The translations under genes were made by a program, and so were the position numbers. DNA of 64,000 nt from Chitinophagaceae bacterium (GTDB lineage Bacteria > Bacteroidota > Bacteroidia > Chitinophagales > Chitinophagaceae), in the NCBI GenBank assembly GCA_019638615.1, contig JAHBTL010000012.1, forward strand, positions 62,001-126,000, given 5' to 3'. Each line of letters starts with the position of its first letter. Position 1 is the first letter of the stretch. The notes under the pieces were generated by a model. The model was not told the origin of the DNA. It did no database searches and was given only the letters and a program-made list of their open reading frames with translations. Positions 15,800-26,730 of this stretch are shown here, one piece after another.

Positions 15800-16108
15800 T
15801 TAGCTATGAACAGGCTCAACAGCTACCACGGCATTCAGGTTGATGGGGCCGTAAATATGAGGGAAAGTATCTTCTATGGCATTGGACCAGTCGTATATCA
15901 ACTGGCTGGTGAGCTTTTCCGTATCAATGGTGAGTTTAACAAGATCGCTTTTACCTGAAAAATACCTTCTCAGCACATCGGCAACCTGCCGCGCTTCACA
16001 GCAATGAATAAATCCTTCTTCTTTGAGGGCGGGCGATGCATATTGTCCAGCCGCCTGCTGGGCGCTGTTCCATTCCTCACCGGTAGTAATGTGGTAAATA
16101 AGTGGCAT
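15800..16108 (-). CDS. DUF952 family protein
   Basis: This 102-residue soluble protein matches DUF952: start MPLIYHITTGEEWNSAQQAAGQYASP, then the family-typical GFIHCCEARQVADVLRRYF, a middle LVKLTIDTEKL, and an end FPHIYGPINLNAVVAVEPV. No activity is established for the family. It lies 25 nt downstream of aroC on the same strand and may be the last gene of the aromatic transcript. Confidence 0.85.
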   Translation of the reverse strand: MPLIYHITTGEEWNSAQQAAGQYASPALKEEGFIHCCEARQVADVLRRYFSGKSDLVKLTIDTEKLTSQLIYDWSNAIEDTFPHIYGPINLNAVVAVEPVHS

Positions 16109-16133
16109 AACGATCGTTTACTTACAAATGAAC

Positions 16134-17132
16134 CTACAATATACGTTTTATCTTTTGCTCTGCAAGCATCAGATCGCAAAGTACAAAAGCCGTTACGGCT
16201 TCCAGCACCACCGGCACGCGCAGGGCGATGCACAGATCGTGGCGTCCTTTTACCGAAAAGCTTTCTGTTTCACCCGTTTCCCAGTTAAGCGTTTGCTGGG
16301 TTTTGGGAGTGGAGGAAGTGGGTTTTATGGCGATCCTGAATACCAGCTCGTTGCCGTTACTGATGCCGCCTACAATTCCTCCCGCATGATTGGTAGTTGT
16401 TTTGCCGCTCATATCGGCAATGGCATCGTTATGCTCGCTGCCAAACATGCGTGCCGCGGCAAAGCCGGTTCCGAACTCTATGCCCCGTATAGCAGGTATG
16501 GCAAATACGGCATGACTGATCAGCGATTCTGCCGAATCGAAAAAAGGCTCGCCTAAGCCGGCAGGCAATCCATTCGCCCTGCATTCCACAATGCCGCCTA
16601 TGCTGTCTTTCGCATCAATGGCTTTCTGCAACCCTTTTTCCAGGTCGCTTTCCCCTCCTATTTCCAGTATGTTCGCTGTTACCTTTGTGCCGGAATACGC
16701 CAGCAGCTTTTTCGCTATTACGCCGGCGGCTACCAATGCTACCGTTAGCCTGCCGCTGAAATGGCCGCCTCCCCTGTAATCTTCATAGCCTCCAAACTTT
16801 TGATGCGCTACAAAATCCGCGTGACCCGGGCGCGGGACCGATCTTTGCTTCTGGTAATCGCCCGACCGGGTATTGTTATTTTCGAACAGGATGGTAATGG
16901 GCGCCCCGGTGGTAGCATCGTTGAAAATACCACTTTTGAAAATGGGCAGATCGGACTCCTGGCGGGGAGTAGTGCCTTTTTGCGTACCGCCTTTCCTTCT
17001 TTCAATGTCTGTTAAAAAATCTTCTACTTTTAAAGGCAATCCTGCCGGACAACCATCAATTAAAATGCCCACACTTTCACCATGCGACTCACCGAAAATA
17101 TGAATGCGGAACAACCTGCCAAAAGAGTTCAT
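16134..17132 (-). CDS. aroC: Chorismate synthase
   Basis: This 332-residue enzyme makes chorismate from 5-enolpyruvylshikimate 3-phosphate and needs reduced FMN. The start MNSFGRLFRIHIFGESHGESVGI carries the family signature with the catalytic His. RPGHADF, the RGGGHFSGRLTVA stretch (RARE-type flavin loop region) and GGISNGNELVFRIAIKPTSS all fit. Length is slightly below the usual 350-370, but both ends are intact. It is 21 nt downstream of aroA on the same strand. Confidence 0.96.
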   Translation of the reverse strand: MNSFGRLFRIHIFGESHGESVGILIDGCPAGLPLKVEDFLTDIERRKGGTQKGTTPRQESDLPIFKSGIFNDATTGAPITILFENNNTRSGDYQKQRSVPRPGHADFVAHQKFGGYEDYRGGGHFSGRLTVALVAAGVIAKKLLAYSGTKVTANILEIGGESDLEKGLQKAIDAKDSIGGIVECRANGLPAGLGEPFFDSAESLISHAVFAIPAIRGIEFGTGFAAARMFGSEHNDAIADMSGKTTTNHAGGIVGGISNGNELVFRIAIKPTSSTPKTQQTLNWETGETESFSVKGRHDLCIALRVPVVLEAVTAFVLCDLMLAEQKIKRIL

Positions 17133-17153
17133 ATAAAGTATTACTGATTGAAA

Positions 17154-18440
17154 TTAATGTATATGCCCGACTTCAACCACAGCGCCTATGCTGCGAATGT
17201 CATCATAAAAATCGGGATAAGATTTATTGATCGCTTCAGCGTCGCTGATCACTGTTTCTCCGCTGGCTTTCAGCGCTGCGGTAGCGCACGCCATAGCGAT
17301 ACGATGATCGTGACGGGAATGTACGTGGGCGCCTTGTAAGCCACTGCCGCCATGCACCCGCATCACATCCTCCTCCAGGTCAATCTGCAGTCCCATTTTA
17401 CCGAATTCCTCCTGTAAAGTAAGTCCCCGGTTGCTTTCTTTATGAGCAAGCCGGCTGACTCCTTTAATAGAAGTGATTCCTTTGCAATAAGCAGCCAATA
17501 CCACCAGCGGTGGAAAAAGGTCGGGACAATCGGTAGCGTCAAAGCTAAAGGCTTTTAATTCCTTCGGGTACAAACGGATACGGTCATCCGAAACTTCCAT
17601 GCCCGCCCCCGCGTCTTTCAGCGCTTCCAGTATTTTTTTATCCGCCTGGGCAGAAGAAGGATCCAGCCCTTTTACGTCAACGGCGCCTGCTATGGCGCCC
17701 GCTACCAGCAGAAAAGCACCACCGCTCCAGTCGCCTTCTACCGTATATGTAATTTTTTTTTCTTTTTTGTCAACAGGAGCGCCGTCAAAATAAAACGACT
17801 CATAATTATTATTCACCGGTGTTTTCAGCCCGAACGCTTCCATTACTTTTAAAGTAAGATCAATATAAGGGCGGCTTTTCAGATTGGTTACACGGATGCT
17901 GACATCCCGCGCACCTGCAGCCGCATAAGCCATCAGCAATCCCGTAAGGAACTGCGAACTCAGGGAGCCATCTATCTCAATATCTGCCGGTTGCAAAGGC
18001 CCGGTAAGGGAAATAGGAAGCCTGCCCTTATTGGACTGAACGGTTACGCCTAAGCGAGGCAATACCTCATCAAAAAAATCCATGGGTCTTGTTAACAAGC
18101 TTCCCTCACCATTAATGGTAATCGCTGTGGAATGCAGTGCTATCAATGGCGCGAACATACGTATGCCCAGCCCGCTTTCACCACAATGAACCACTGCCGG
18201 TGTATTTTCATTACTGCTGTTTACCCGTATTTCATCGGGGGATATATGCTTCACATCGGCGCCCAATGCCTGTATAACGCCCAATGCCGCCTGGTCGTCG
18301 TTGGAATGCCCCGGATTTACAATAGTGGTCTCCCCTTTTGTTATCAATGCCGCGGCACATGCACGCTGCATGGAGCTCTTGGAAGCCGGCGCCTGCAGGT
18401 TCCCGGATAAGGTGGAAGGATGTATGGTAGCGATCATCAT
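17154..18440 (-). CDS. aroA: 3-phosphoshikimate 1-carboxyvinyltransferase (EPSP synthase)
   Basis: This 428-residue enzyme joins phosphoenolpyruvate to shikimate 3-phosphate. Motifs are the substrate-binding SKSSMQRA near residue 20, ESGLGIRMFAPL, LSSQFLTGLLMAYA, and HDHRIAMACATAAL near the C-terminus. The normally SASKSxSxR start appears as PASKSSMQRA, a Bacteroidota-type variant. The ATG overlaps the aroB stop by one base (TAATG), so the two genes are translationally coupled. Confidence 0.95.
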   Translation of the reverse strand: MMIATIHPSTLSGNLQAPASKSSMQRACAAALITKGETTIVNPGHSNDDQAALGVIQALGADVKHISPDEIRVNSSNENTPAVVHCGESGLGIRMFAPLIALHSTAITINGEGSLLTRPMDFFDEVLPRLGVTVQSNKGRLPISLTGPLQPADIEIDGSLSSQFLTGLLMAYAAAGARDVSIRVTNLKSRPYIDLTLKVMEAFGLKTPVNNNYESFYFDGAPVDKKEKKITYTVEGDWSGGAFLLVAGAIAGAVDVKGLDPSSAQADKKILEALKDAGAGMEVSDDRIRLYPKELKAFSFDATDCPDLFPPLVVLAAYCKGITSIKGVSRLAHKESNRGLTLQEEFGKMGLQIDLEEDVMRVHGGSGLQGAHVHSRHDHRIAMACATAALKASGETVISDAEAINKSYPDFYDDIRSIGAVVEVGHIH

Positions 18441-19459
18441 TACAATGCGGTTATAATTTTATCCAGTTGTTTTAAAGCGATAGGCTGAATAACTCCTTTG
18501 CCTATCCTGTCAAGCAATACATAGCTCATCTCTTTTTTTACCCTTTTCTTATCCATCTTCAATACTTCCAGTACTTTTTGCTTATCAAACTCGGCGTATG
18601 TGGGAAGTCCGTATTGTTCAAGCACTGCAATTACTTTTTCAGCGTCCTTAAAGCCAAGCAACTGTGCGGATATAAGTGAAGCGTAAGTCATTCCGATAGA
18701 TATGGCCTGCCCGTGAGAAAGCTCATACTGGTTTTCAAGCGCATGCCCCAGCGTATGACCAAAGTTCAACAGCTTCCGGTCGCCTTTTTCAAATTCATCT
18801 TTCTGTACCACTTTTATTTTTATCAACGCATTGCGTTTGATGAGCGAAGCCATTTTCTTCCTGTTCCGTCGGTAATCCGATACGGAATGCTGCTCCAGCT
18901 CCGAGAACATTGCCGCGTCTTTAATGCAGGCATGCTTTATAATTTCAGCAAATCCATTTTGCCATTCACTTTCCGGCAGCGATTCCAGCAGCTTCAGGTC
19001 GTGCAGGATAAAAGAAGGCTGGCGGATAATGCCTACCATGTTTTTATATACTCCTACATCAATCCCGTTTTTACCGCCGATGCTCGCGTCTACCATTGCC
19101 AGTACCGATGTGGGTATGAACCCGAAGCCGATACCCCGCATATAAACCGAGGCAACATACCCCGTAATATCGGTAATTACCCCACCGCCTATTCCGACAA
19201 GCGTTGTTTTACGATCGGCCTCCATTTCTATCATCTGTTCAATAATGGTGTCTACCGTTGCCTGTACTTTGAACTCCTCCCCGGCTTTGAGCACAATCAC
19301 ATTCCATCCTTTGAGTTTTGCTTCATGCGCATTAAAGATATTTTCATCGGTAATGATGATAGCGGCCCTGCTGTCTGCGATCTTTTTTAAGTTCGAAAAA
19401 GCAGCATCGAAATAATATTGTGTAGAAGCTTGGCTGAATTTGTATGTTTCGGAAGTCAA
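18440..19459 (-). CDS. aroB: 3-dehydroquinate synthase
   Basis: This 339-residue NAD-dependent enzyme makes 3-dehydroquinate from DAHP. The NAD-binding GIGGGVITDITGYVASVYMRG, the metal-binding NGFAEIIKHACI and the FGHTLGHALE region with its metal-ligand histidines are all present. Length is close to the usual 350-360. The gene follows a repetitive segment and a RAYT-like transposase gene on the same strand, which part it from the upstream aromatic genes. Confidence 0.95.
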   Translation of the reverse strand: MTSETYKFSQASTQYYFDAAFSNLKKIADSRAAIIITDENIFNAHEAKLKGWNVIVLKAGEEFKVQATVDTIIEQMIEMEADRKTTLVGIGGGVITDITGYVASVYMRGIGFGFIPTSVLAMVDASIGGKNGIDVGVYKNMVGIIRQPSFILHDLKLLESLPESEWQNGFAEIIKHACIKDAAMFSELEQHSVSDYRRNRKKMASLIKRNALIKIKVVQKDEFEKGDRKLLNFGHTLGHALENQYELSHGQAISIGMTYASLISAQLLGFKDAEKVIAVLEQYGLPTYAEFDKQKVLEVLKMDKKRVKKEMSYVLLDRIGKGVIQPIALKQLDKIITAL

Positions 19460-19469
19460 AGTGATAATG

Positions 19470-19640
19470 TTTATGAGATATTTGAGATTTGAAATTTGAG
19501 ATGTTTGTGGTTTGCAGTTTATGATTTATGGTTTTTAGATCATTGCCCCATTGTCAACTGTCAACTATCAATCCTCAATTAACCTGTAACCATAAACTCC
19601 AGGCCCAAAACCTGTAACCTGAAACTTGCAACCTGTACCC
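19470..19640. repeat. Phrase-like intergenic repeat, copy 5, abutting the RAYT-like gene
   Basis: The left part has TTTGAGATTTGAAATTTGAG and TTTATGATTTATGGTTTTTA. The right part has AACCTGTAACCATAAACTCC and ACCTGTAACCTGAAACTTGC, so left and right are roughly complementary and could fold back. It ends exactly at the 3' end of the transposase-like gene. Confidence 0.8.
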
Positions 19641-20078
19641 TTACTCCTTCAGATTCACTACCATTTTTTCAAAGGCTGCAAGCTCTTCTTCCAGCGATTT
19701 GGTTTGATGGTATTCTTCCTGCCGGTTGATATAATCTGCTGATTTATCCACGTTCGCAGGGCTGACGGAATAGGCTGAATAACCGTCTTCCCAACTAAAA
19801 GCTTCCTGCCAGAACCGGTTGCCGTTTACCCAGTCTTCCGTATCCATTTTCAGCTGCTTTACTATTTCCTGCACATTCTGTACGGGCATTAGCTTAAACA
19901 GGCAATGTATATGATCGTTGTAACCGTTTACAGCCAGCAACTGTATACCTTTGGAGGTTGCATGTTGCCTCATGTAAGGAAACAATACCTTTCTTACGAC
20001 CGGGCTAAGCAGTTGCTGCCTGCCATTCGTACTCCATATGGTGTGAATATAGATATTAGTATGGGTAATGCCCGGCAT
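19641..20078 (-). CDS. REP-associated (Y1/IS200-like) tyrosine transposase, RAYT
   Basis: This 145-residue Y1-transposase-like protein starts with the family's MPGITHTNIYIHTIWST strand and has the metal-binding HUH motif as NDHIHCLF (His56, His58). FWQEAFSWEDGYSAYSVS follows, and the likely catalytic Tyr116 is in SADYINRQ. All catalytic residues seem present. No second gene or insertion-sequence ends accompany it, so it looks like a single-copy RAYT that may process hairpin repeats. It sits inside the aromatic gene cluster, 28 nt after the DAHP synthase stop, with a phrase-like repeat directly downstream. Confidence 0.8.
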   Translation of the reverse strand: MPGITHTNIYIHTIWSTNGRQQLLSPVVRKVLFPYMRQHATSKGIQLLAVNGYNDHIHCLFKLMPVQNVQEIVKQLKMDTEDWVNGNRFWQEAFSWEDGYSAYSVSPANVDKSADYINRQEEYHQTKSLEEELAAFEKMVVNLKE

Positions 20079-20106
20079 GTATTGATGAGCTACCAGCCTG
20101 TATAAC

Positions 20107-21195
20107 TCAGGCGTTCATGATCTTGTTCTGGTGATTGATAGATTCCATATGCACCGCGTCGAAATACTTGGTGATGAACTCTTTGCTCAGCCCGGTTTTT
20201 TCACCCCTTGCAAATGCCCTTTCCAGTATTTCATTCCAGCGGCTCGTCTGTAAAATGGTAATACCATTGTCTTTTTTATACTGTCCGATCTTTTCTGCCA
20301 GCTTCATACGCTGACTGAGAATCTGCATCATTTCGTCATCGAGGTGATTGATCTGCTGACGCAGTTTTTCCAGCGCAGCATGGTATGCTTCTGAGTTAAC
20401 ATCTTCTTTTCTCCAAACGATCGCCTCCAGCATTTCGGCCAGTTTTTCGGGTGTAACCTGCTGCTTGGCATCGCTCCAGGCATTATCGGGGTCAATATGG
20501 CTTTCGATCATCAGCCCGTCAAAATCAAGGTCGATGGCTTTTTGCGCTACATCCAGCAAAATATCCCTGCGGCCGCATATATGCGAAGGATCGTTGATCA
20601 TCAGCATTTCGGGGTTACGGCGTTTCATTTCAATGGCAAGATGCCACATAGGTGCATTGCGGTATTCCGTATTGCCGTAAGCGCTGAAGCCGCGATGGAT
20701 CAGCCCGATCTTTTTAATGCCCGCCTTGGCTACTCTTTCAACAGCGCCTGTCCACAATTCAAGATCAGGATTGATAGGATTCTTAATTAAAACAGGTACA
20801 TCTGCGCCACGCAATGCATCCGCTACTTCCTGCACACTGAAAGGATTGACAGTGGTGCGCGCACCGATCCACAGCATGTCCACTTCAAAATGCAAAGCGT
20901 CTTCTACCTGTTTGCCGGTAGCTACTTCCACAGTGGTGGGCAAGCCGGTCAGCTTTTTAGCCTGTTGCAACCAGGGTAAACCTTTTGCGCCTATTCCCTC
21001 AAAACTTCCGGGACGTGTACGGGGCTTCCAGATACCCGCCCTCAGCATGTCTACCTTTCCTGTTTTCGCCAGGCGCTGTGCTGTTTCCAGCACCTGTGTT
21101 TCTGTTTCTGCACTGCACGGACCGGAAATGATCAATGGCTTTTTATTCAGTTTTTCAAGCACCACAGCTTTCATATTATTTTCAACCGCTTGCAT
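20107..21195 (-). CDS. DAHP synthase (type I-beta) fused to chorismate mutase (AroQ)
   Basis: The N-terminal part of this 362-residue protein (to about 265) is a class I-beta 3-deoxy-7-phosphoheptulonate synthase, with ISGPCSAET, RAGIWKPRTRPGSFEG, IGARTTVNPFSVQEVADAL, KNPINPD, LIHRGFS and DPSHICGRRD. The C-terminal part (about 270-355) is an AroQ mutase, with LEKLRQQINHLDDEMMQILSQRMKLAEKIGQYKKDN. The fusion, common in Bacteroidota, joins the first shikimate step to the first Phe/Tyr step, and the mutase domain may serve in feedback control by prephenate. It lies 47 nt after the helicase gene. Confidence 0.93.
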   Translation of the reverse strand: MQAVENNMKAVVLEKLNKKPLIISGPCSAETETQVLETAQRLAKTGKVDMLRAGIWKPRTRPGSFEGIGAKGLPWLQQAKKLTGLPTTVEVATGKQVEDALHFEVDMLWIGARTTVNPFSVQEVADALRGADVPVLIKNPINPDLELWTGAVERVAKAGIKKIGLIHRGFSAYGNTEYRNAPMWHLAIEMKRRNPEMLMINDPSHICGRRDILLDVAQKAIDLDFDGLMIESHIDPDNAWSDAKQQVTPEKLAEMLEAIVWRKEDVNSEAYHAALEKLRQQINHLDDEMMQILSQRMKLAEKIGQYKKDNGITILQTSRWNEILERAFARGEKTGLSKEFITKYFDAVHMESINHQNKIMNA

Positions 21196-21242
21196 ATGTT
21201 TGTTATTTTGAAATGGTTAAATAGTTATCGTTGGGTTTGTTG

Positions 21243-22940
21243 TTACCGCCTGCTGTCGGCATCGTTCATACGAATGCTTCTGCCTTTGTATTTCTTGCCG
21301 TCTATGGACCGGATCATTTGTCCCGCCGCCTTTTTATCAATCTCAATCCAGCTGTTCATTTCTTTCATATCAACTCTGCCCAGCACTTCTTTTTTCAGAT
21401 CGCTCATATCAAGGATGAACTGCAGAAAGCTTGCTTTATAGAAGCCATCTTTGGTTCCAAGATTTACAAACAGTCTTGCGTATTCTCCGCCGCTGTTCCT
21501 GCTGCCATATTCTTTCCTGCCTTCTGTTCTGCGCCCTGTAGCAGCACGCCCGTTATCGCGCCTGTCGCCATACGCAGACCGCCCGTCCCTGCTGCTGTAT
21601 TCGCGTACCCTTTCCCTTACATTCAGGTCTTCCGCGTTTTCGTAATACTTTAAAAACCTCGTGAACTCCTGCGCCGCCAGTCTTTTCAGTATTTCTTCTT
21701 TACTGATATCGGCAAACTTTTCTTCAAGCATAGGCAGGTACGGCTCATAGCTGGTGTCATCTATATCCAGTTGCAGCAGGTTATCCATAAAATGATAGAA
21801 CTGCTTACGGCAAACATCTTTACCCGAGGGTATTTCAAGCTTATGAAAAGGAACCTGCACCATTCTTTCGATCTGGCGAACCTTTCCTATTTCGCGGCTA
21901 TGTATGATAGACATACATATTCCCGTATTGCCGGCTCTTCCCGTACGACCGCTGCGATGCGTATATACTTCCACATCATCGGGCAGCTCGTAATTAATAA
22001 CATGTGTAATGCCCTGCACATCTATGCCTCTTGCGGCCACATCCGTAGCGATCAGCAATTGCAAAGTTTTTTCCCTGAACTCACCCATTACCTTGTCGCG
22101 CTGCTGCTGGGTAAGATCCCCATGCAACGCATCAATATCATATCCTTCGCGGGTGAGCTTTTCAGCTATCCCCTGGGCATCGGCCTTGGTACGGGTGAAA
22201 ATAATGCCATAAATACCGGGGTTAAAATCAATCAACCGTTTTAAAGCCTCATACCGGTGCTGTGCATTGGTTACATAATACTGGTGATCAATGTTTTTAT
22301 TGGCAGTATTTACCTTACCCACTGTTACTTCTACCGGCTGCTGCATGTATTTTTTGCTTACGCGGCGTATTTCAGGAGGCATGGTAGCGCTGAACAGCCA
22401 GGTGCTTTCCCGGTTAGGCGTATTCTGTAATATAAATTCAATATCGTCCTGGAAACCCATGTTCAGCATTTCATCCGCCTCGTCCAGCACCACGTACTTT
22501 ATCTGTTCCAGGTTGATCGCTTTCCTTTCAATCAGATCAATCAGTCTGCCGGGAGTAGCCACTACAATCTGTACTCCTCTTTTCAACTCACGTATCTGCG
22601 CCCCAATGGAAGCTCCGCCATATACCGCCACCACGTGCATACCGGGTATGAACTTCTTAAACAACTCTACTTCATTCACAATCTGCAAGCACAATTCTCT
22701 TGTAGGGCAAACTACCAGCGCCTGTGGAAATTTATCCTTGGCATCGATAAGATGAAGTAATGGCAATCCAAAAGCTGCCGTTTTGCCTGTACCGGTCTGT
22801 GCCAGCCCTACCAGGTCTTTGGTACCGCTCAATAAAACAGGAATCGCTTTTTCCTGTATGGGCGTTGGCTGTTTAAACCCCAAAGCATCGGTAGCCTGTA
22901 CCAATCTCCCGTCTAAACCCAACCCTTCAAATGTCATCAT
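21243..22940 (-). CDS. DEAD-box RNA helicase with DbpA-type RNA-binding tail
   Basis: This 565-residue protein has the full helicase core: Q motif (GFKQPTPIQEKAIP), motif I AQTGTGKT, DEAD, SAT, and motif VI HRSGRTGRAG. A basic, Gly/Arg-rich linker (about 435-475) is followed by a DbpA-like RNA-binding domain (YARLFVNLGTKDGFYKASFL to GKKYKGRSIRMND), as in CsdA/DeaD-type proteins that remodel rRNA or mRNA, often in the cold. A perfect TAnnTTTG box lies 20-27 nt upstream, so it can be expressed apart from the tyrA transcript around it. Confidence 0.92.
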   Translation of the reverse strand: MMTFEGLGLDGRLVQATDALGFKQPTPIQEKAIPVLLSGTKDLVGLAQTGTGKTAAFGLPLLHLIDAKDKFPQALVVCPTRELCLQIVNEVELFKKFIPGMHVVAVYGGASIGAQIRELKRGVQIVVATPGRLIDLIERKAINLEQIKYVVLDEADEMLNMGFQDDIEFILQNTPNRESTWLFSATMPPEIRRVSKKYMQQPVEVTVGKVNTANKNIDHQYYVTNAQHRYEALKRLIDFNPGIYGIIFTRTKADAQGIAEKLTREGYDIDALHGDLTQQQRDKVMGEFREKTLQLLIATDVAARGIDVQGITHVINYELPDDVEVYTHRSGRTGRAGNTGICMSIIHSREIGKVRQIERMVQVPFHKLEIPSGKDVCRKQFYHFMDNLLQLDIDDTSYEPYLPMLEEKFADISKEEILKRLAAQEFTRFLKYYENAEDLNVRERVREYSSRDGRSAYGDRRDNGRAATGRRTEGRKEYGSRNSGGEYARLFVNLGTKDGFYKASFLQFILDMSDLKKEVLGRVDMKEMNSWIEIDKKAAGQMIRSIDGKKYKGRSIRMNDADSRR

Positions 22941-22959
22941 ATAATAAAAAAAATTTTCG

Positions 22960-22967
22960 CAAAGATA
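22960..22967 (-). promoter_or_regulatory. Candidate internal promoter before the DEAD-box gene
   Basis: Read on the minus strand, TATCTTTG is a perfect TAnnTTTG box, about 20 nt before the start codon at 22940. No clear -33 TTG is seen. It lies in a 110-nt gap after tyrA and would also serve the downstream DAHP synthase gene. Confidence 0.45.
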
Positions 22968-23050
22968 ACCACGATTTAGCTGATTATCCTTATTATTTGA
23001 CTTTTTGTGCCTCTCTTCAACATCTTTTTATATACTGCTGCAAGGCCGGT

Positions 23051-23899
23051 TTATTTGATGATCCGGTTTATTTTATTGGCATTTTCCATGAGCTCACGCA
23101 GGTACTCATAATTTTCTTTTTCAATACAGCTTTTGAACTTTCTTAACTGCGTAATGTGTTCATTTAAAACGTCCAGCACATGTTCCCTGTTCTGCTTAAA
23201 AATAGGCAGCCACATAGAGGGACTGCTTTTAGCCAGCCTCACCGTACTTTCAAATCCACCGCCGGCCAGCTCGAAAATGGCCTCGTCTTCCTTTTCTTTT
23301 TCAAGCACCGTATTGGCCAGCGCGAACGAAGTGATGTGCGATATATGGCTTATATAGGCCGCATGCATATCGTGGCTGTGAGCATCCATATAGGTAACCC
23401 GCATGCCCAATTCATGATATACTTTTTCAATAGTAGCCGCTGCGTCCGGATCACTTTTCTCTTTTTCGCAAATCACACAGGTCCTGCCGGCAAAAGCATC
23501 CCGCACTGCCGCCTCGGGGCCACTGTATTCTGTACCCCACATGGGATGTGTTGCCACAAATCGTTTACGCATGCGATGATCTGCAAGCGCCTGACACAAA
23601 GCATCTTTGGTTGACCCGGCATCTGCAACGATCTGCTTATCGGTTATAAGATCCATAATGCGCTGCATCATGGGGATGGTGGCATCTACCGGAATGGCCA
23701 CATAAATGAGGTCACTTTTCTTAACTGCTTCTTCCAGTGGCAAAGCTTCATCTATAATACCCAGCTCCAGTGCTTTTTGTATGCTGTTTTCCGTGCGGCT
23801 TACTCCTATTACATGTTTTACCAGCCCTTTATCTTTTAAAATAAGGGCAAAGGAACCGCTGATCAGGCCCACACCTACTATTGTTATCGTTTCGAACAT
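23051..23899 (-). CDS. tyrA: Prephenate dehydrogenase
   Basis: This 282-residue NAD(P)-dependent enzyme commits prephenate to tyrosine. A Rossmann start TITIVGVGLISGSFALILKDKG is followed by the family's VADAGSTKDAL and FVATHPMWGTEYSGPEAA (substrate-binding His and conserved Gly). A helical C-terminal domain has HAAYISHISHITSFALA and FESTVRLAKSSPSMW. There is no ACT or mutase domain. The gene ends 110 nt before the helicase and begins 4 nt after the aminotransferase stop, so it is in the pheA transcript. Confidence 0.94.
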   Translation of the reverse strand: MFETITIVGVGLISGSFALILKDKGLVKHVIGVSRTENSIQKALELGIIDEALPLEEAVKKSDLIYVAIPVDATIPMMQRIMDLITDKQIVADAGSTKDALCQALADHRMRKRFVATHPMWGTEYSGPEAAVRDAFAGRTCVICEKEKSDPDAAATIEKVYHELGMRVTYMDAHSHDMHAAYISHISHITSFALANTVLEKEKEDEAIFELAGGGFESTVRLAKSSPSMWLPIFKQNREHVLDVLNEHITQLRKFKSCIEKENYEYLRELMENANKINRIIK

Positions 23900-23902
23900 C
23901 TT

Positions 23903-25084
23903 TTATTTTTTACTGTTCCCGGATGTTTTGATCCTGTTAATGCTTTCCTGGATTTTTTCTTCGGCACAACAAAGGCTCACCCGTATGTATTGATCACCCG
24001 CATTCCCAAATATGCCGCCGGGAGTAATAAATACGGATGAACCATACAATACTTCGTCGCTAAGCACATACCCATCGGCGTAACCATCGGGGATACCCGC
24101 CCACACAAACATACCGGCCTGCGACCTGGAAAAGGTGCAGTTCAACAATTCCAGCAGCTCAAATACTTTTTCTCTTCTTTTTCTATATACAGCGTTTACG
24201 CTGTCGTACCAGTCTTTTGTTAAGCTTAAAGCTTTGGCAGCGGCCAATTGCAGGGGCAAAAACATTCCGCTGTCCATATTACTTTTAAAGCGCAAAACTT
24301 CATCAATTCTTTCTTTTGCCCCGCATAACATTCCTACTCTCCAGCCTGCCATATTCTGCGACTTGCTCAGCGAATTCAGCTCTATAGCAACCTCTTTCGC
24401 CCCGTCTACGCTTAAAATACTTAAGGGATTTTCATTCAGGATAAAGCTGTAAGGATTATCGTGCACCAGCAACACATTGTTTGCTTTTGCAAACGCAACC
24501 AGTTCTTCAAACAAAGCTTTATCGGGCAATTGTCCTGTAGGCATGTGCGGATAATTCACAAAAAGCAATGCGCTCCTGCCCGTATGGTTTGTTGATAGTT
24601 GCTTTGCAAGTTGCCTGAAATCGGGCTTCCAGTTGTTTTTTTCATCCAACGCATATTCCACAATATTGCCGCCGGCCAGCCTGGCCGCACTCCGGTAGGT
24701 AGGATAACCGGGATTGGGTACGTATACATTGTCGCCTTCATTAATGTAAGTCATGCAAACGTGCATTATACCTTCCTTGCTTCCGATCAAAGGCAATATT
24801 TCTGTATCAGGATTCAAAGCAACACGATACCAGGTTTGATACCATTCCGCGATAGCCTTTCGTAATATGGGAGATCCTTTATAGTTCTGGTAAGCATGTA
24901 CGTTGGATCTCGCGCTTTCTTCCTGCAGGGTTTTAATTACATCGGGGTGCGGTGGTAAATCAGGACTACCAATACCCAGGTTAATGACCTGCTTACCCTG
25001 CCTGTTCAGTTCATCTATTTCCCTGAGCTTGGTAGAGAAATAATATTCTCCAATGCCATCCAGTCGTTTTGCCGTTGCAATCAT
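23903..25084 (-). CDS. PLP-dependent class I/II aminotransferase
   Basis: This 393-residue fold-type I aminotransferase has INLGIGSPDLPPHPDV at the start, NPGYPTYRSAARLAGG, VNYPHMPTGQ (the substrate Asn/Pro region), DNPYSFIL, and the lysine motif ELNSLSKSQNMAGWRVG, where the lysine after SLS binds PLP. A C-terminal arginine sits in YIRVSLCC. Its position between pheA and tyrA suggests that it makes Phe and Tyr from the 2-oxo acids, an inference from context. It could also be LL-diaminopimelate-type by sequence. Confidence 0.85.
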   Translation of the reverse strand: MIATAKRLDGIGEYYFSTKLREIDELNRQGKQVINLGIGSPDLPPHPDVIKTLQEESARSNVHAYQNYKGSPILRKAIAEWYQTWYRVALNPDTEILPLIGSKEGIMHVCMTYINEGDNVYVPNPGYPTYRSAARLAGGNIVEYALDEKNNWKPDFRQLAKQLSTNHTGRSALLFVNYPHMPTGQLPDKALFEELVAFAKANNVLLVHDNPYSFILNENPLSILSVDGAKEVAIELNSLSKSQNMAGWRVGMLCGAKERIDEVLRFKSNMDSGMFLPLQLAAAKALSLTKDWYDSVNAVYRKRREKVFELLELLNCTFSRSQAGMFVWAGIPDGYADGYVLSDEVLYGSSVFITPGGIFGNAGDQYIRVSLCCAEEKIQESINRIKTSGNSKK

Positions 25085-25117
25085 ATCGATAATTAGTGGT
25101 AAGTGATAAGAAATAAA

Positions 25118-26038
25118 TTAAGAATGATGTTTGCCTTTACGGTATACCCCATATATTTTCAGGTCTTCGGTTAAGCTCTTCATGTCCTTGATCACCTGGT
25201 AAAACCGGTCAAGCGAATCAAATTCCATGTCTGCATGAAATGAATACCTGAAATCGGAGCCCGGTATGGGAGAGCTTTGCAGCTTACTCAAATTAATACC
25301 TCCGTCAGCGATACGCGTCAACACCTTTGCAAGGCTCCCTCTGGAATGATCCGTATGAAAGTTCACCGAAGCTTTGTCGGCATTTTCAATTACCTGGGCC
25401 AGGTCTTCATGCTGCAATACCAGGAAACGGGTATAATTATTCCGGAGCGTGTGGATATCCGGCTGCAATACATCCAGTCCGAAAAGCCGGGCTGCCAGGC
25501 TGCTGGCTATAGCGGCTATATGTTTGCTTTTATGTTGCTGAAGCTGTTTTGCGCTGAGGGCAGTGTCTTCTGTTTCAACCAGTTTCCAGCTATACTTATC
25601 TAAAAACTCAAGGCATTGCTGCAATGCCATAGGGTGAGAGTGCACTTCGCGGATATCCTGAAGGGCGATTCCGGGATTTACCAGCAGGTTTTGCCTTATT
25701 TGCAGGTATATCTCTCCAACTATTTTAAGCTTGCTTTTTTGCAATAAATTGTAGTTGGGCAGAATGCTTCCGGCAATCGAATTTTCGATGGCCATTATAC
25801 CGCCATCACTTTCCTTTTTATTGGATGCTTTTTTAACAACTTCCCGGAAAGTATCACAACATATAACCGTTACATTGTTGTCAAAATAATGATTGGCTGC
25901 CACCTGGTGAAAGCTTCCTTCGTAACCCTGTATGGCGATCACCATGGCTGTATCTGTTGCCGGGCTGTCATTCAGCGTAGAGACCTCTCCCGGTTTTTCT
26001 GTTGCTGCCGTTTTAACTGCGCTGCTGTTATTGTTCAT
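25118..26038 (-). CDS. pheA: Prephenate dehydratase
   Basis: This 306-residue enzyme converts prephenate to phenylpyruvate. The dehydratase domain starts at IAIQGYEGSFHQVAANHYF, and ESDGGIMAIENSIAGSILPNYNLL and NNYTRFLVLQ (catalytic Thr-Arg-Phe) follow. A C-terminal ACT domain (SRGSLAKVLTRIADGGINLSKLQSSP) should bind Phe for feedback inhibition. The first 31 residues are Ser/Thr-rich and atypical, so the ATG at residue 32 (25945) could be the true start. It is the first structural gene after the attenuator. Confidence 0.92.
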   Translation of the reverse strand: MNNNSSAVKTAATEKPGEVSTLNDSPATDTAMVIAIQGYEGSFHQVAANHYFDNNVTVICCDTFREVVKKASNKKESDGGIMAIENSIAGSILPNYNLLQKSKLKIVGEIYLQIRQNLLVNPGIALQDIREVHSHPMALQQCLEFLDKYSWKLVETEDTALSAKQLQQHKSKHIAAIASSLAARLFGLDVLQPDIHTLRNNYTRFLVLQHEDLAQVIENADKASVNFHTDHSRGSLAKVLTRIADGGINLSKLQSSPIPGSDFRYSFHADMEFDSLDRFYQVIKDMKSLTEDLKIYGVYRKGKHHS

Positions 26039-26075
26039 AAAGTTATAATGCCTGTTATGTTACTGGTTGCCGCAT

Positions 26076-26100
26076 AAAAAATCCCGGCTTTTAGCCGGGA
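26076..26100 (-). terminator. Intrinsic terminator of the aromatic attenuator
   Basis: On the minus strand TCCCGGCT and AGCCGGGA form a perfect 8-bp stem with a 3-nt AAA loop (26093-26100 with 26082-26089), followed by six T (26076-26081). It stands between the leader peptide and pheA, 37 nt before the pheA start. It therefore stops transcription of the downstream aromatic genes rather than ending a gene. Confidence 0.88.
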
Positions 26101-26155
26101 CTGATTATGTTGAACTTCTTCGTTTGTTTTATTTTTTCAACAAAAGCAATCCCGG
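26095..26155 (-). promoter_or_regulatory. Antiterminator pairing of the pheA leader
   Basis: On the minus strand CCGGGATTG (26155-26147, inside the leader ORF) can pair with CAGTCCCGG (26103-26095) over 9 bp with one G-U wobble. The second strand holds the 5' arm of the terminator, so the two folds exclude each other. CCGG-TAGA-CCGG (26163-26152) could form a small competing hairpin. Pairings were worked out by eye. Confidence 0.75.
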
Positions 26156-26212
26156 TCTACCGGTAAAGTAGAAGTAAAAAAAGAAAAAACGGTATGCTTT
26201 TGAAATTGTCAT
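26129..26212 (-). CDS. Phe/Tyr-rich leader peptide of the aromatic operon
   Basis: From the ATG at 26212 the frame encodes 27 residues, beginning MTISKA and ending LLLLKK-stop. Residues 7-16 read YRFFFFYFYF, so nine of ten consecutive codons are for Phe or Tyr (six Phe codons and three Tyr in the whole peptide). There is no Trp codon. It ends 28 nt before the terminator hairpin and contains the 5' half of the antiterminator. This is the layout of enterobacterial PheL-type leaders: stalling at Phe/Tyr codons should allow antitermination. A perfect TAnnTTTG box lies 7 nt upstream, so the mRNA may be nearly leaderless. Confidence 0.88.
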   Translation of the reverse strand: MTISKAYRFFFFYFYFTGRPGLLLLKK

Positions 26213-26219
26213 TGCGAGG

Positions 26220-26227
26220 CAAATGTA
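26220..26227 (-). promoter_or_regulatory. Promoter -7 box of the aromatic leader transcript
   Basis: Minus-strand TACATTTG matches TAnnTTTG exactly. The expected start is near 26213-26215, only a few bases before the leader ATG. The -33 region (AAAAATG, 21 nt upstream) is a weak match to TTG. Confidence 0.55.
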
Positions 26228-26311
26228 ATACTAAAAATAAAATAAATACATTTTTGATCCCTGTTTCTTAAAACATTCCTGATTTTTCATGCTTATCAAC
26301 AGCAAGCAAAT

Positions 26312-26339
26312 AAAAAAACCACCCCTTTTCAGGAGTGGC
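26312..26339 (-). terminator. Intrinsic terminator of the alanine-rich lipoprotein gene
   Basis: Minus-strand CCACTCC pairs with GGGGTGG (one wobble), followed by seven T. It lies about 40 nt after the stop at 26379. An outer inverted repeat GCAAGCAA/TTGCTTGC (near 26302 and 26349) surrounds it and may lengthen the stem. Confidence 0.75.
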
Positions 26340-26378
26340 CTCAACGATTGCTTGCCATAAAAAAAATCGTAGAATCTC

Positions 26379-26588
26379 TTATTTATTTACTACAGAATCT
26401 GCAGCAGCTTTCAGGCTGTCACCTGCAGCTTTCAGGCTGTCGCCAGCGGCTTTCACTTCTTCTTTAACAGCTTCACCGGCAGCTTTTACTTCTTCTGTTG
26501 CTTTTTCAGCAGCAGCTTCTGTAGATTCAGCAGCGTTGTTGCAGGCAGCAAAAGCGCCTATAGCGAGGATAACCAGTAACTTTTTCAT
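26379..26588 (-). CDS. Alanine/lysine/glutamate-rich small lipoprotein
   Basis: This 69-residue protein starts with a lipoprotein signal, MKKLLVILAIGAFAAC (lipidated Cys16). The rest is one long amphipathic helix with repeated heptad-like units (EKATEEVKAAGEAVKEE, then the tandem repeat AAGDSLKAAGDSLKAAADS). It recalls Lpp-like envelope lipoproteins and small LEA-like helices, but no family is certain. It has its own terminator. It is divergent from the ECF sigma factor and shares with it a palindromic upstream region. Confidence 0.75.
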   Translation of the reverse strand: MKKLLVILAIGAFAACNNAAESTEAAAEKATEEVKAAGEAVKEEVKAAGDSLKAAGDSLKAAADSVVNK

Positions 26589-26649
26589 TCTTAATAGTTT
26601 TTGAATAGTTTGATAATGAAATTTCTTGTTAATACAAAAAGCTAAAAAA

Positions 26650-26698
26650 GGTAACCTGCTTTTTTTAAATAATTTTTTTTACCCAATTTTGGGTTACC
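26650..26698. promoter_or_regulatory. Nested inverted repeats between lipoprotein and sigma factor genes
   Basis: GGTAACC (26650-26656) and GGTTACC (26692-26698) are perfect inverted repeats. Within them ACCCAATTTTGGGT (26681-26694) is a perfect palindrome. The site lies between two divergent genes and could be an operator for one or both. Confidence 0.4.
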
Positions 26699-26730
26699 AA
26701 TCAGGATAATAAAGTATTAATACTTGCTTA

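Follow-up and report, generated by a model that had tools for sequence, protein, structure and literature searches.

A Putative Ribosome-Mediated Attenuator with a Mixed Phenylalanine/Tyrosine Leader Upstream of pheA in Chitinophagaceae

Introduction

The short region that precedes pheA in the DNA considered here raises the question of whether transcription of genes for phenylalanine and tyrosine synthesis is governed by a ribosome as it translates a leader rich in codons for the same two amino acids. The DNA (henceforth the window, the whole stretch of 64,000 nucleotides that was analysed, from a Chitinophagaceae bacterium) had been read beforehand from its letters, and that original prediction proposed a ribosome-mediated attenuator. 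The proposal is supported by a leader and a terminator that have been kept, helices that covary, the placement of one helical arm relative to the leader codons and the nature of the target genes. Judging from these comparisons, pheA, the adjacent aminotransferase gene and tyrA are very probably controlled by ribosome-mediated attenuation of transcription.

The proposed mechanism may be stated in terms of four RNA segments, called arms 1 through 4. Transcription would probably begin a few bases 5' of the leader ATG. A shortage of charged Phe-tRNA or Tyr-tRNA would cause a ribosome to stall within the run of Phe and Tyr codons, leaving arm 2 free to pair with arm 3 as an antiterminator before arm 4 has been made, and RNA polymerase would continue into pheA. 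When both charged tRNAs are plentiful, the ribosome would advance toward the stop codon and cover arm 2, arms 3 and 4 would pair as a terminator, and transcription would end before pheA. I infer the stalling, the start site, the termination in the cell and the order of folding; Tyr would be sensed as well as Phe. The conservation of the leader, its spacing, the two alternative helices and the target genes can be read from the sequences compared below.

The Element and Its Genes

The features of the element and of the genes that follow it are given in Table 1.

Table 1. Features of the pheA leader and the downstream gene cluster, in window coordinates.
Feature	Position	Strand	Evidence or remark
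-7 box TACATTTG	26220..26227	-	matches TAnnTTTG
Leader ORF, 27 codons, MTISKAYRFFFFYFYFTGRPGLLLLKK	26129..26212	-	ORF translation
Sensor run, leader codons 7-16	26165..26194	-	nine Phe/Tyr in ten
Arm 1, CAAAAGC, possible protector hairpin (doubtful)	26196..26202	-	can pair with GCTTTTG (26147-26141)
Arm 2, antiterminator 5' arm within leader ORF	26136..26155	-	CCGGGATTG (26155-26147) and TGTTGAA (26142-26136)
Arm 3, antiterminator 3' arm	26095..26114	-	TTCAACA (26114-26108) and CAGTCCCGG (26103-26095)
Intrinsic terminator, arms 3:4	26076..26102	-	TCCCGGCT-AAA-AGCCGGGA at 26100-26082, then six T
pheA, prephenate dehydratase	25118..26038	-	PF00800
Aminotransferase class I/II	23903..25084	-	PF00155
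tyrA, prephenate dehydrogenase	23051..23899	-	PF02153, PF20463
DEAD-box RNA helicase with DbpA domain, candidate operon member	21243..22940	-	domain match
DAHP synthase-chorismate mutase fusion, candidate co-transcription	20107..21195	-	PF00793, PF01817
IS200-like transposase ORF, interposed before aroB	19641..20078	-	PF01797 (Y1_Tnp, E 7.4e-22)
aroB, 3-dehydroquinate synthase, candidate co-transcription	18440..19459	-	domain/annotation evidence
aroA, EPSP synthase, candidate co-transcription	17154..18440	-	domain/annotation evidence
aroC, chorismate synthase, candidate co-transcription	16134..17132	-	domain/annotation evidence

The pieces named in the original prediction are present as described: a box of the form TAnnTTTG, which I take to be the -7 box of Bacteroidota, a 27-codon leader with nine Phe or Tyr codons in ten (codons 7-16 read Y R F F F F Y F Y F, with no Trp codon in the run), and a perfect 8-bp terminator followed by six T. 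The terminator stem (26100-26093 with 26089-26082) reaches 10 bp if the outer A-T and G-T are counted, its loop is AAA, and the six T occupy 26081-26076. The antiterminator had been described as a helix of 9 bp. The nine pairs between CCGGGATTG and CAGTCCCGG, one of them G-U, are there as claimed, but the description was incomplete: TGTTGAA also pairs with TTCAACA, so the window antiterminator amounts to 16 pairs in two helices separated by an internal loop. A predicted intrinsic terminator thus stands between the leader ORF and the first structural gene, as it does in attenuators.

The end of the box and the leader ATG are 7 nt apart. The distance usually found in Bacteroidota between a -7 box and the start of transcription was used to place the start site, and from these two quantities the 5' UTR is predicted to be just a few bases long. 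The segment 26222-26060 folds 3.3 standard deviations below its dinucleotide shuffles and was equalled or bettered by 1 of 200 of them. When 16000-26700 was scanned for terminators, the one in the pheA leader ranked first (10 pairs) among 11 sites, a number of sites not above chance (shuffle mean 11.3). A sigma-70 scan was uninformative in this region, finding 14 sites as compared to a shuffle mean of 19.5.

Upstream of the element lies an ORF of 69 amino acids (26379-26588, minus strand) that begins like a lipoprotein and contains a repeated segment, KAAGDSLKAAGDSL. It gave no Pfam match above the cut-off, and it is followed by a terminator-like hairpin at 26342-26315.

All of the genes that the original prediction placed downstream are present, but its list omitted the DEAD-box helicase and the IS200-like transposase ORF. 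Because these two ORFs intervene, the aro genes are considered only candidate members of the pheA transcript. The aminotransferase gene and tyrA were found 3' of pheA in all 77 of the relatives' loci with more than 2500 nt of downstream sequence, an arrangement that fits joint sensing of Phe and Tyr. A same-strand helicase match occurs in the available downstream sequence of 36 of these 77 relatives.

Conservation in Close Relatives

The loci of relatives were drawn from two sources, named genomes, of whose 177 matching stretches the best 80 were used, and a sample of the family (42 of 60 genomes matching, with loci from the best 30). Of the 110 loci, 104 are distinct, and the sample leans to near relatives. 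Leaders were sought in the 400 nt upstream of the conserved core of pheA, with ATG, GTG or TTG accepted as starts.

The original prediction named the loss of the Phe/Tyr run and of the terminator in close relatives as the observation that would count against it. I looked for such loss and found instead that every one of the 104 loci has a leader ORF with at least 6 Phe/Tyr within 10 codons, 103 have at least 7 and 97 at least 8; if only ATG starts are allowed, 6 is reached at 103 loci and 8 at 96. In 2797 control tiles cut from these loci, a count of 6 is reached by 61, a count of 7 by 8 and a count of 8 by none, nor does any of 1040 dinucleotide shuffles (ATG starts only) come to 8. Twelve further matches from the window's own family, left over from the family sample, have at least 6 in 10 cases and at least 7 in 9, the leader falling below the threshold of 6 in the other 2. 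The leader, whose translation is predicted, therefore has the codon bias characteristic of attenuators. A Trp codon is found among the last ten codons of the run in 9 of the 104 relatives.

The signals on either side of the leader are kept as well. A TAnnTTTG box begins 9-24 nt 5' of the leader start in 94 of the 104 loci (12-18 nt in 88), where the chance expectation for the wider interval is under 1%. By a relaxed rule, a terminator is present at 104 of 104 loci; among the controls, the rule finds one in 59 of 982 tiles taken from these loci and in 9 of 520 shuffles. A strict rule recognizes it at 73 of 104, because many of the U-tracts are interrupted (TTCTTGTTTT). The distance from the last Phe/Tyr codon to the start of arm 2, counted from 6 nt on so that shorter spacings could not show, is 8-12 nt in 103 of the 104 loci and exactly 9 nt in 85.

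One of the loci (L074) comes from a record titled as a Williamsia MAG. Its pheA is 72% identical to that of the window and is preceded by the same leader; the title may be wrong.

Alternative Helices and Their Folding

Covariation was assessed in an alignment of 97 sequences, 7 near-identical ones having been dropped, with the pairs drawn from the window. The terminator is paired in 86% of cells and the antiterminator in 78%. The covariation scores of both helices exceed those of all 500 shuffles and of every slid version, though the shuffles ignore relatedness, and related sequences can give such scores without structure. Some secondary measures are less marked: the further pair types of the antiterminator were matched by 11 of 500 shuffles and the terminator pairs changed on both sides by 5 of 500. 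One inner antiterminator pair occurs as G-C in 64 sequences and as A-U in 12. The antiterminator appears to be shorter in relatives, since 3 of the 16 pairs seen in the window fail, in 49, 71 and 77 of the 97 sequences. RNAalifold, applied to the alignment, predicted the terminator only. The comparison points to an antiterminator that overlaps both the leader ORF and an arm of the terminator and that has been kept by covariation.

A protector hairpin between arms 1 and 2 (CAAAAGC with GCUUUUG) is doubtful. It is paired in 83% of cells and its covariation score exceeds that of the shuffles, but pairs changed on both sides were reached by 335 of 500 shuffles and fall below every slid version.

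A ribosome with the last Phe/Tyr codon in its A site would reach to about the start of arm 2, and the common spacing of 9 nt is close to that reach. The original prediction called for the folding of both states to be computed, and the window RNA was modelled with arm 4 present and an assumed ribosome footprint. The terminator has a modelled probability of 0.01-0.21 when the ribosome is stalled at codons 9-14, of 0.52 at codon 15, of 0.81 at codon 16, of 0.97 from codon 17 through the stop codon, and of 0.53 with no ribosome. In the model, the window RNA thus switches as anticipated for stalls at codons 9-14 but not at codons 15-16, nor do most relatives switch at equilibrium: over the 104 loci, full-length equilibrium folding gives mean terminator probabilities of 0.78 with the ribosome stalled, 0.99 with it at the stop codon and 0.94 without it. 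In 26 loci the value at the stop codon is higher than that at the stall by over 0.3; no locus shows the reverse. Since equilibrium folding yields no switch in most relatives, the attenuator model needs folding to take place during transcription. When arm 4 is left out of the model, a stalled ribosome leaves arm 3 mostly paired with upstream sequence in 104 of 104 loci; the same holds in 0 of 104 when the ribosome is at the stop codon and in 102 of 104 without a ribosome. The contrast between stall and stop is partly built in, because the script allows no pairing beneath the ribosome or 5' of it.

Alternative Explanations

The alternative most deserving of attention retains the attenuator but has it sense Phe alone, with the Tyr codons serving to break U-rich runs of Phe codons or to keep the RNA sequence. 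Long runs of TTT can indeed be slippery, TTT is the commonest codon in the leader runs of the 104 loci, and Phe outnumbers Tyr across them, 513 to 315. Nevertheless, both residues are present in all 104 runs, accompanied by just 43 others in all (few others are expected, because the runs were delimited by their density of Phe and Tyr), and the presence of tyrA downstream in 77 of 77 loci also speaks for Tyr. I regard sensing of Phe alone as unlikely, though well worth keeping in mind. A different use of the leader, in which the nascent peptide itself arrests the ribosome in response to free Phe or Tyr or some other ligand, might be suggested by residues outside the run that recur across many loci (KAY, RPGLLLL). 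It is hard to reconcile with the varying length of the run and order of Phe and Tyr within it, and with the stretch after the run, which at several loci lies in other frames (those with VVFAKA and SFC endings) while the RNA pairing is kept. Such arrest seems very improbable.

Leader and terminator might also have nothing to do with one another, the one being an unrelated gene for a small protein and the other a constitutive terminator. The number of terminator-like sites in the region, no greater than in shuffles, would be in keeping with this, but the leader, the spacing and the two mutually exclusive helices are conserved together, and I give the idea scarcely any credence. Least credible of all is a riboswitch that binds a ligand or a tRNA (a T-box or something similar) and dispenses with the ribosome as sensor. 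A structured 5' region ahead of amino-acid genes is what one would expect of it, yet the Rfam scans that were made returned no T-box or riboswitch match, and the best match of the window stretch by E-value is to Phe_leader, below the cut-off.

Other Families and Other Operons

The reach of the putative attenuator beyond the family was examined in a sample of the class consisting of 197 genomes with a completeness of 90% or more. Matches were found in 58 of them: the window's own genome, two others in its family and 55 from other families. Of the 55 loci from other families, 35 carry a leader in which 6 or more of 10 codons are for Phe or Tyr (7 or more in 29), while about 2% of control tiles reach 6. 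The remaining 20 have no leader at the threshold of 6, and one family, f13, has none in 7 loci. The three loci of family f17 contain a short YFWFY run that goes uncounted at this threshold.

The pairing of arms 2 and 3 was compared over 45 leader-positive loci, 10 from the window's family and the 35 from others. Arm 2 with its own arm 3 gives a mean of -16.9 kcal/mol, as compared to -11.1 with the arms of other families and -7.8 with shuffled arms. In the 35 loci from other families, the native pairing outdoes 95% or more of 100 shuffles in 31 cases and 95% or more of the swaps in 18. Nineteen of the 35 have a TAnnTTTG box no more than 70 nt from the start of the leader, and in 15 of these the distance is 23-41 nt; the near-leaderless spacing therefore looks typical of the window's own family. 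At two loci from two other families (L125 in G113 and L137 in G188), two tandem leaders rich in Phe and Tyr seem by eye to precede pheA, each with a terminator-like hairpin.

In a sample of the phylum, 128 of 148 genomes gave a match, and 40 further loci were taken, spread over families. A leader was found in 4 of 4 that fall within the class and in 3 of 36 outside it. The three out-of-class carriers (L281, L287 and L295) have pheA genes 41-47% identical to that of the window and are the only out-of-class matches in the phylum sample at 41% identity or more, so the leader seems to go with a lineage of pheA. This hints at transfer or shared descent of both leader and gene. Out-of-class leaders farther upstream could have been missed, because many of the pheA genes are N-terminally fused, within open frames of up to 736 amino acids.

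Similar leaders precede other operons in the window's own genome: MIITTHHHHHILPSR before hisG (L191, G000:C34), MKNIANKYWWWHTNSLRGL before trpE (L260, G000:C12) and MLKSSILNIVSSPVIVVVVIIIPAIQGGGIGI before an ilv locus (L225, G000:C19), each followed, by eye, by a hairpin and then a run of T. In uncontrolled counts over the same genome and related ones, at least 4 His in 10 codons were found at 16 of 16 hisG loci, WWWH at 12 of 20 loci from the trpE search and an Ile/Val run at 7 of 28 loci from the ilvD search. No clear Thr/Ile leader was seen at 28 homoserine dehydrogenase loci, where long fused genes start beyond the 1500 nt examined. Positions 299-398 of L225, at the ilv leader, give a sub-threshold match to the Rfam Thr_leader family (27.3 bits as compared to a cut-off of 55).

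A much broader reading can be entertained, tentatively: that the element represents an RNA family found throughout the class and outside Rfam 15, that it reads the charging of Phe-tRNA and Tyr-tRNA jointly, that it accompanies a single pheA lineage, outside the class too, that it is near-leaderless in its own family, with an untranslated leader perhaps read through, unlike in enterobacteria, and that it forms part of a general use of attenuation in Bacteroidota along with His, Trp and Ile/Val leaders. Taken as a whole I hold this to be possible but doubtful, and it is made less probable by the full-length model, which predicts termination for an untranslated leader.

Comparison with Known Systems

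Among the closest known systems is enterobacterial pheL, where a Phe-rich leader ORF and alternative antiterminator and terminator helices lie before pheA. The element described here is alike in having a Phe-rich leader ORF and alternative helices ahead of pheA. It differs in its mixed run of Phe and Tyr, its predicted near-leaderless start, the inclusion of tyrA within the gene set and a protector hairpin that is doubtful. The Rfam family for such leaders, RF01859 (Phe_leader), is the best Rfam match of the window stretch by E-value (28.4 bits, E 0.0076), and sub-threshold matches to it were found at 4 of 17 pheA loci scanned together (L001, L020, L031 and L161, the highest at 38.2 bits). With scores of 28-38 bits, neither the window nor the scanned relatives reach its cut-off of 55 bits, and a scan of the window at Rfam gathering level gave no match. 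RF01692 (Bacteroid-trp), which I take to be a Trp leader, matched neither the window stretch (E 10) nor the trpE locus L260 (E 0.5).

No detailed description of this pheA element was found in the literature searched, most subscription journals being outside its scope. Lopatovskaya, Seliverstov and Lyubetsky reportedly treated the attenuation of amino-acid operons, and their work may hold an earlier prediction. What the original prediction left unsaid, whether such leaders had been described in Bacteroidota, can be answered in part: according to the sections drawn on here, clues to attenuation at amino-acid operons and a 5' element at pheA have already been published for a flavobacterium (PMC9723704). 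That report finds strong clues to leader-peptide attenuation upstream of amino-acid biosynthesis operons in Flavobacterium psychrophilum, with 5' elements upstream of pheA and hisG that also occur in other Flavobacteriaceae and have no Rfam hits (PMC9723704). The pheA element of F. psychrophilum likewise belongs to the Bacteroidetes, but those sections neither give a leader sequence nor call that element itself an attenuator (PMC9723704).

Individual traits of the element have counterparts farther afield, at least in the portions of the reports used here. A putative leader peptide with Phe-Tyr-Phe precedes aroF in Corynebacterium glutamicum (PMC4046766), again at a gene of aromatic biosynthesis, DAHP synthase, but with only three such residues and in another phylum. 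In Streptomyces lividans, leader peptides of attenuators (e.g., trpL1, ilvL and leuL) are reported to be transcribed leaderless (PMC8079986), as found by RNA sequencing and for other amino acids in another phylum, whereas the start proposed here is predicted. A leaderless start and a Phe-Tyr-Phe leader therefore exist elsewhere, separately (PMC8079986, PMC4046766). Within the consulted parts of other sources, the Bacteroid-trp RNA motif RF01692 is listed for Bacteroidetes (PMC2864571), Bacteroides thetaiotaomicron has short ORFs resembling leader peptides and about 3.7% of its 5' UTRs are shorter than 10 nt (PMC7366714), attenuators have been predicted in Actinobacteria (PMC1262725), and leader genes have been treated in general (PMC4833913).

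Against this background, the pheA leader offers a testable and well-supported candidate regulator for the making of Phe and Tyr. The papers found have little on how amino-acid synthesis is controlled in this phylum, and the leader sequences can be used to build an RNA family missing from Rfam 15. The element may also be a case of a single leader that responds to two amino acids and has hardly any 5' UTR ahead of its start codon. As compared to the known systems, the mixed Phe/Tyr run, the predicted near-leaderless start and the doubtful protector are the details that distinguish this element, which is real, conserved and built like a ribosome-mediated attenuator.
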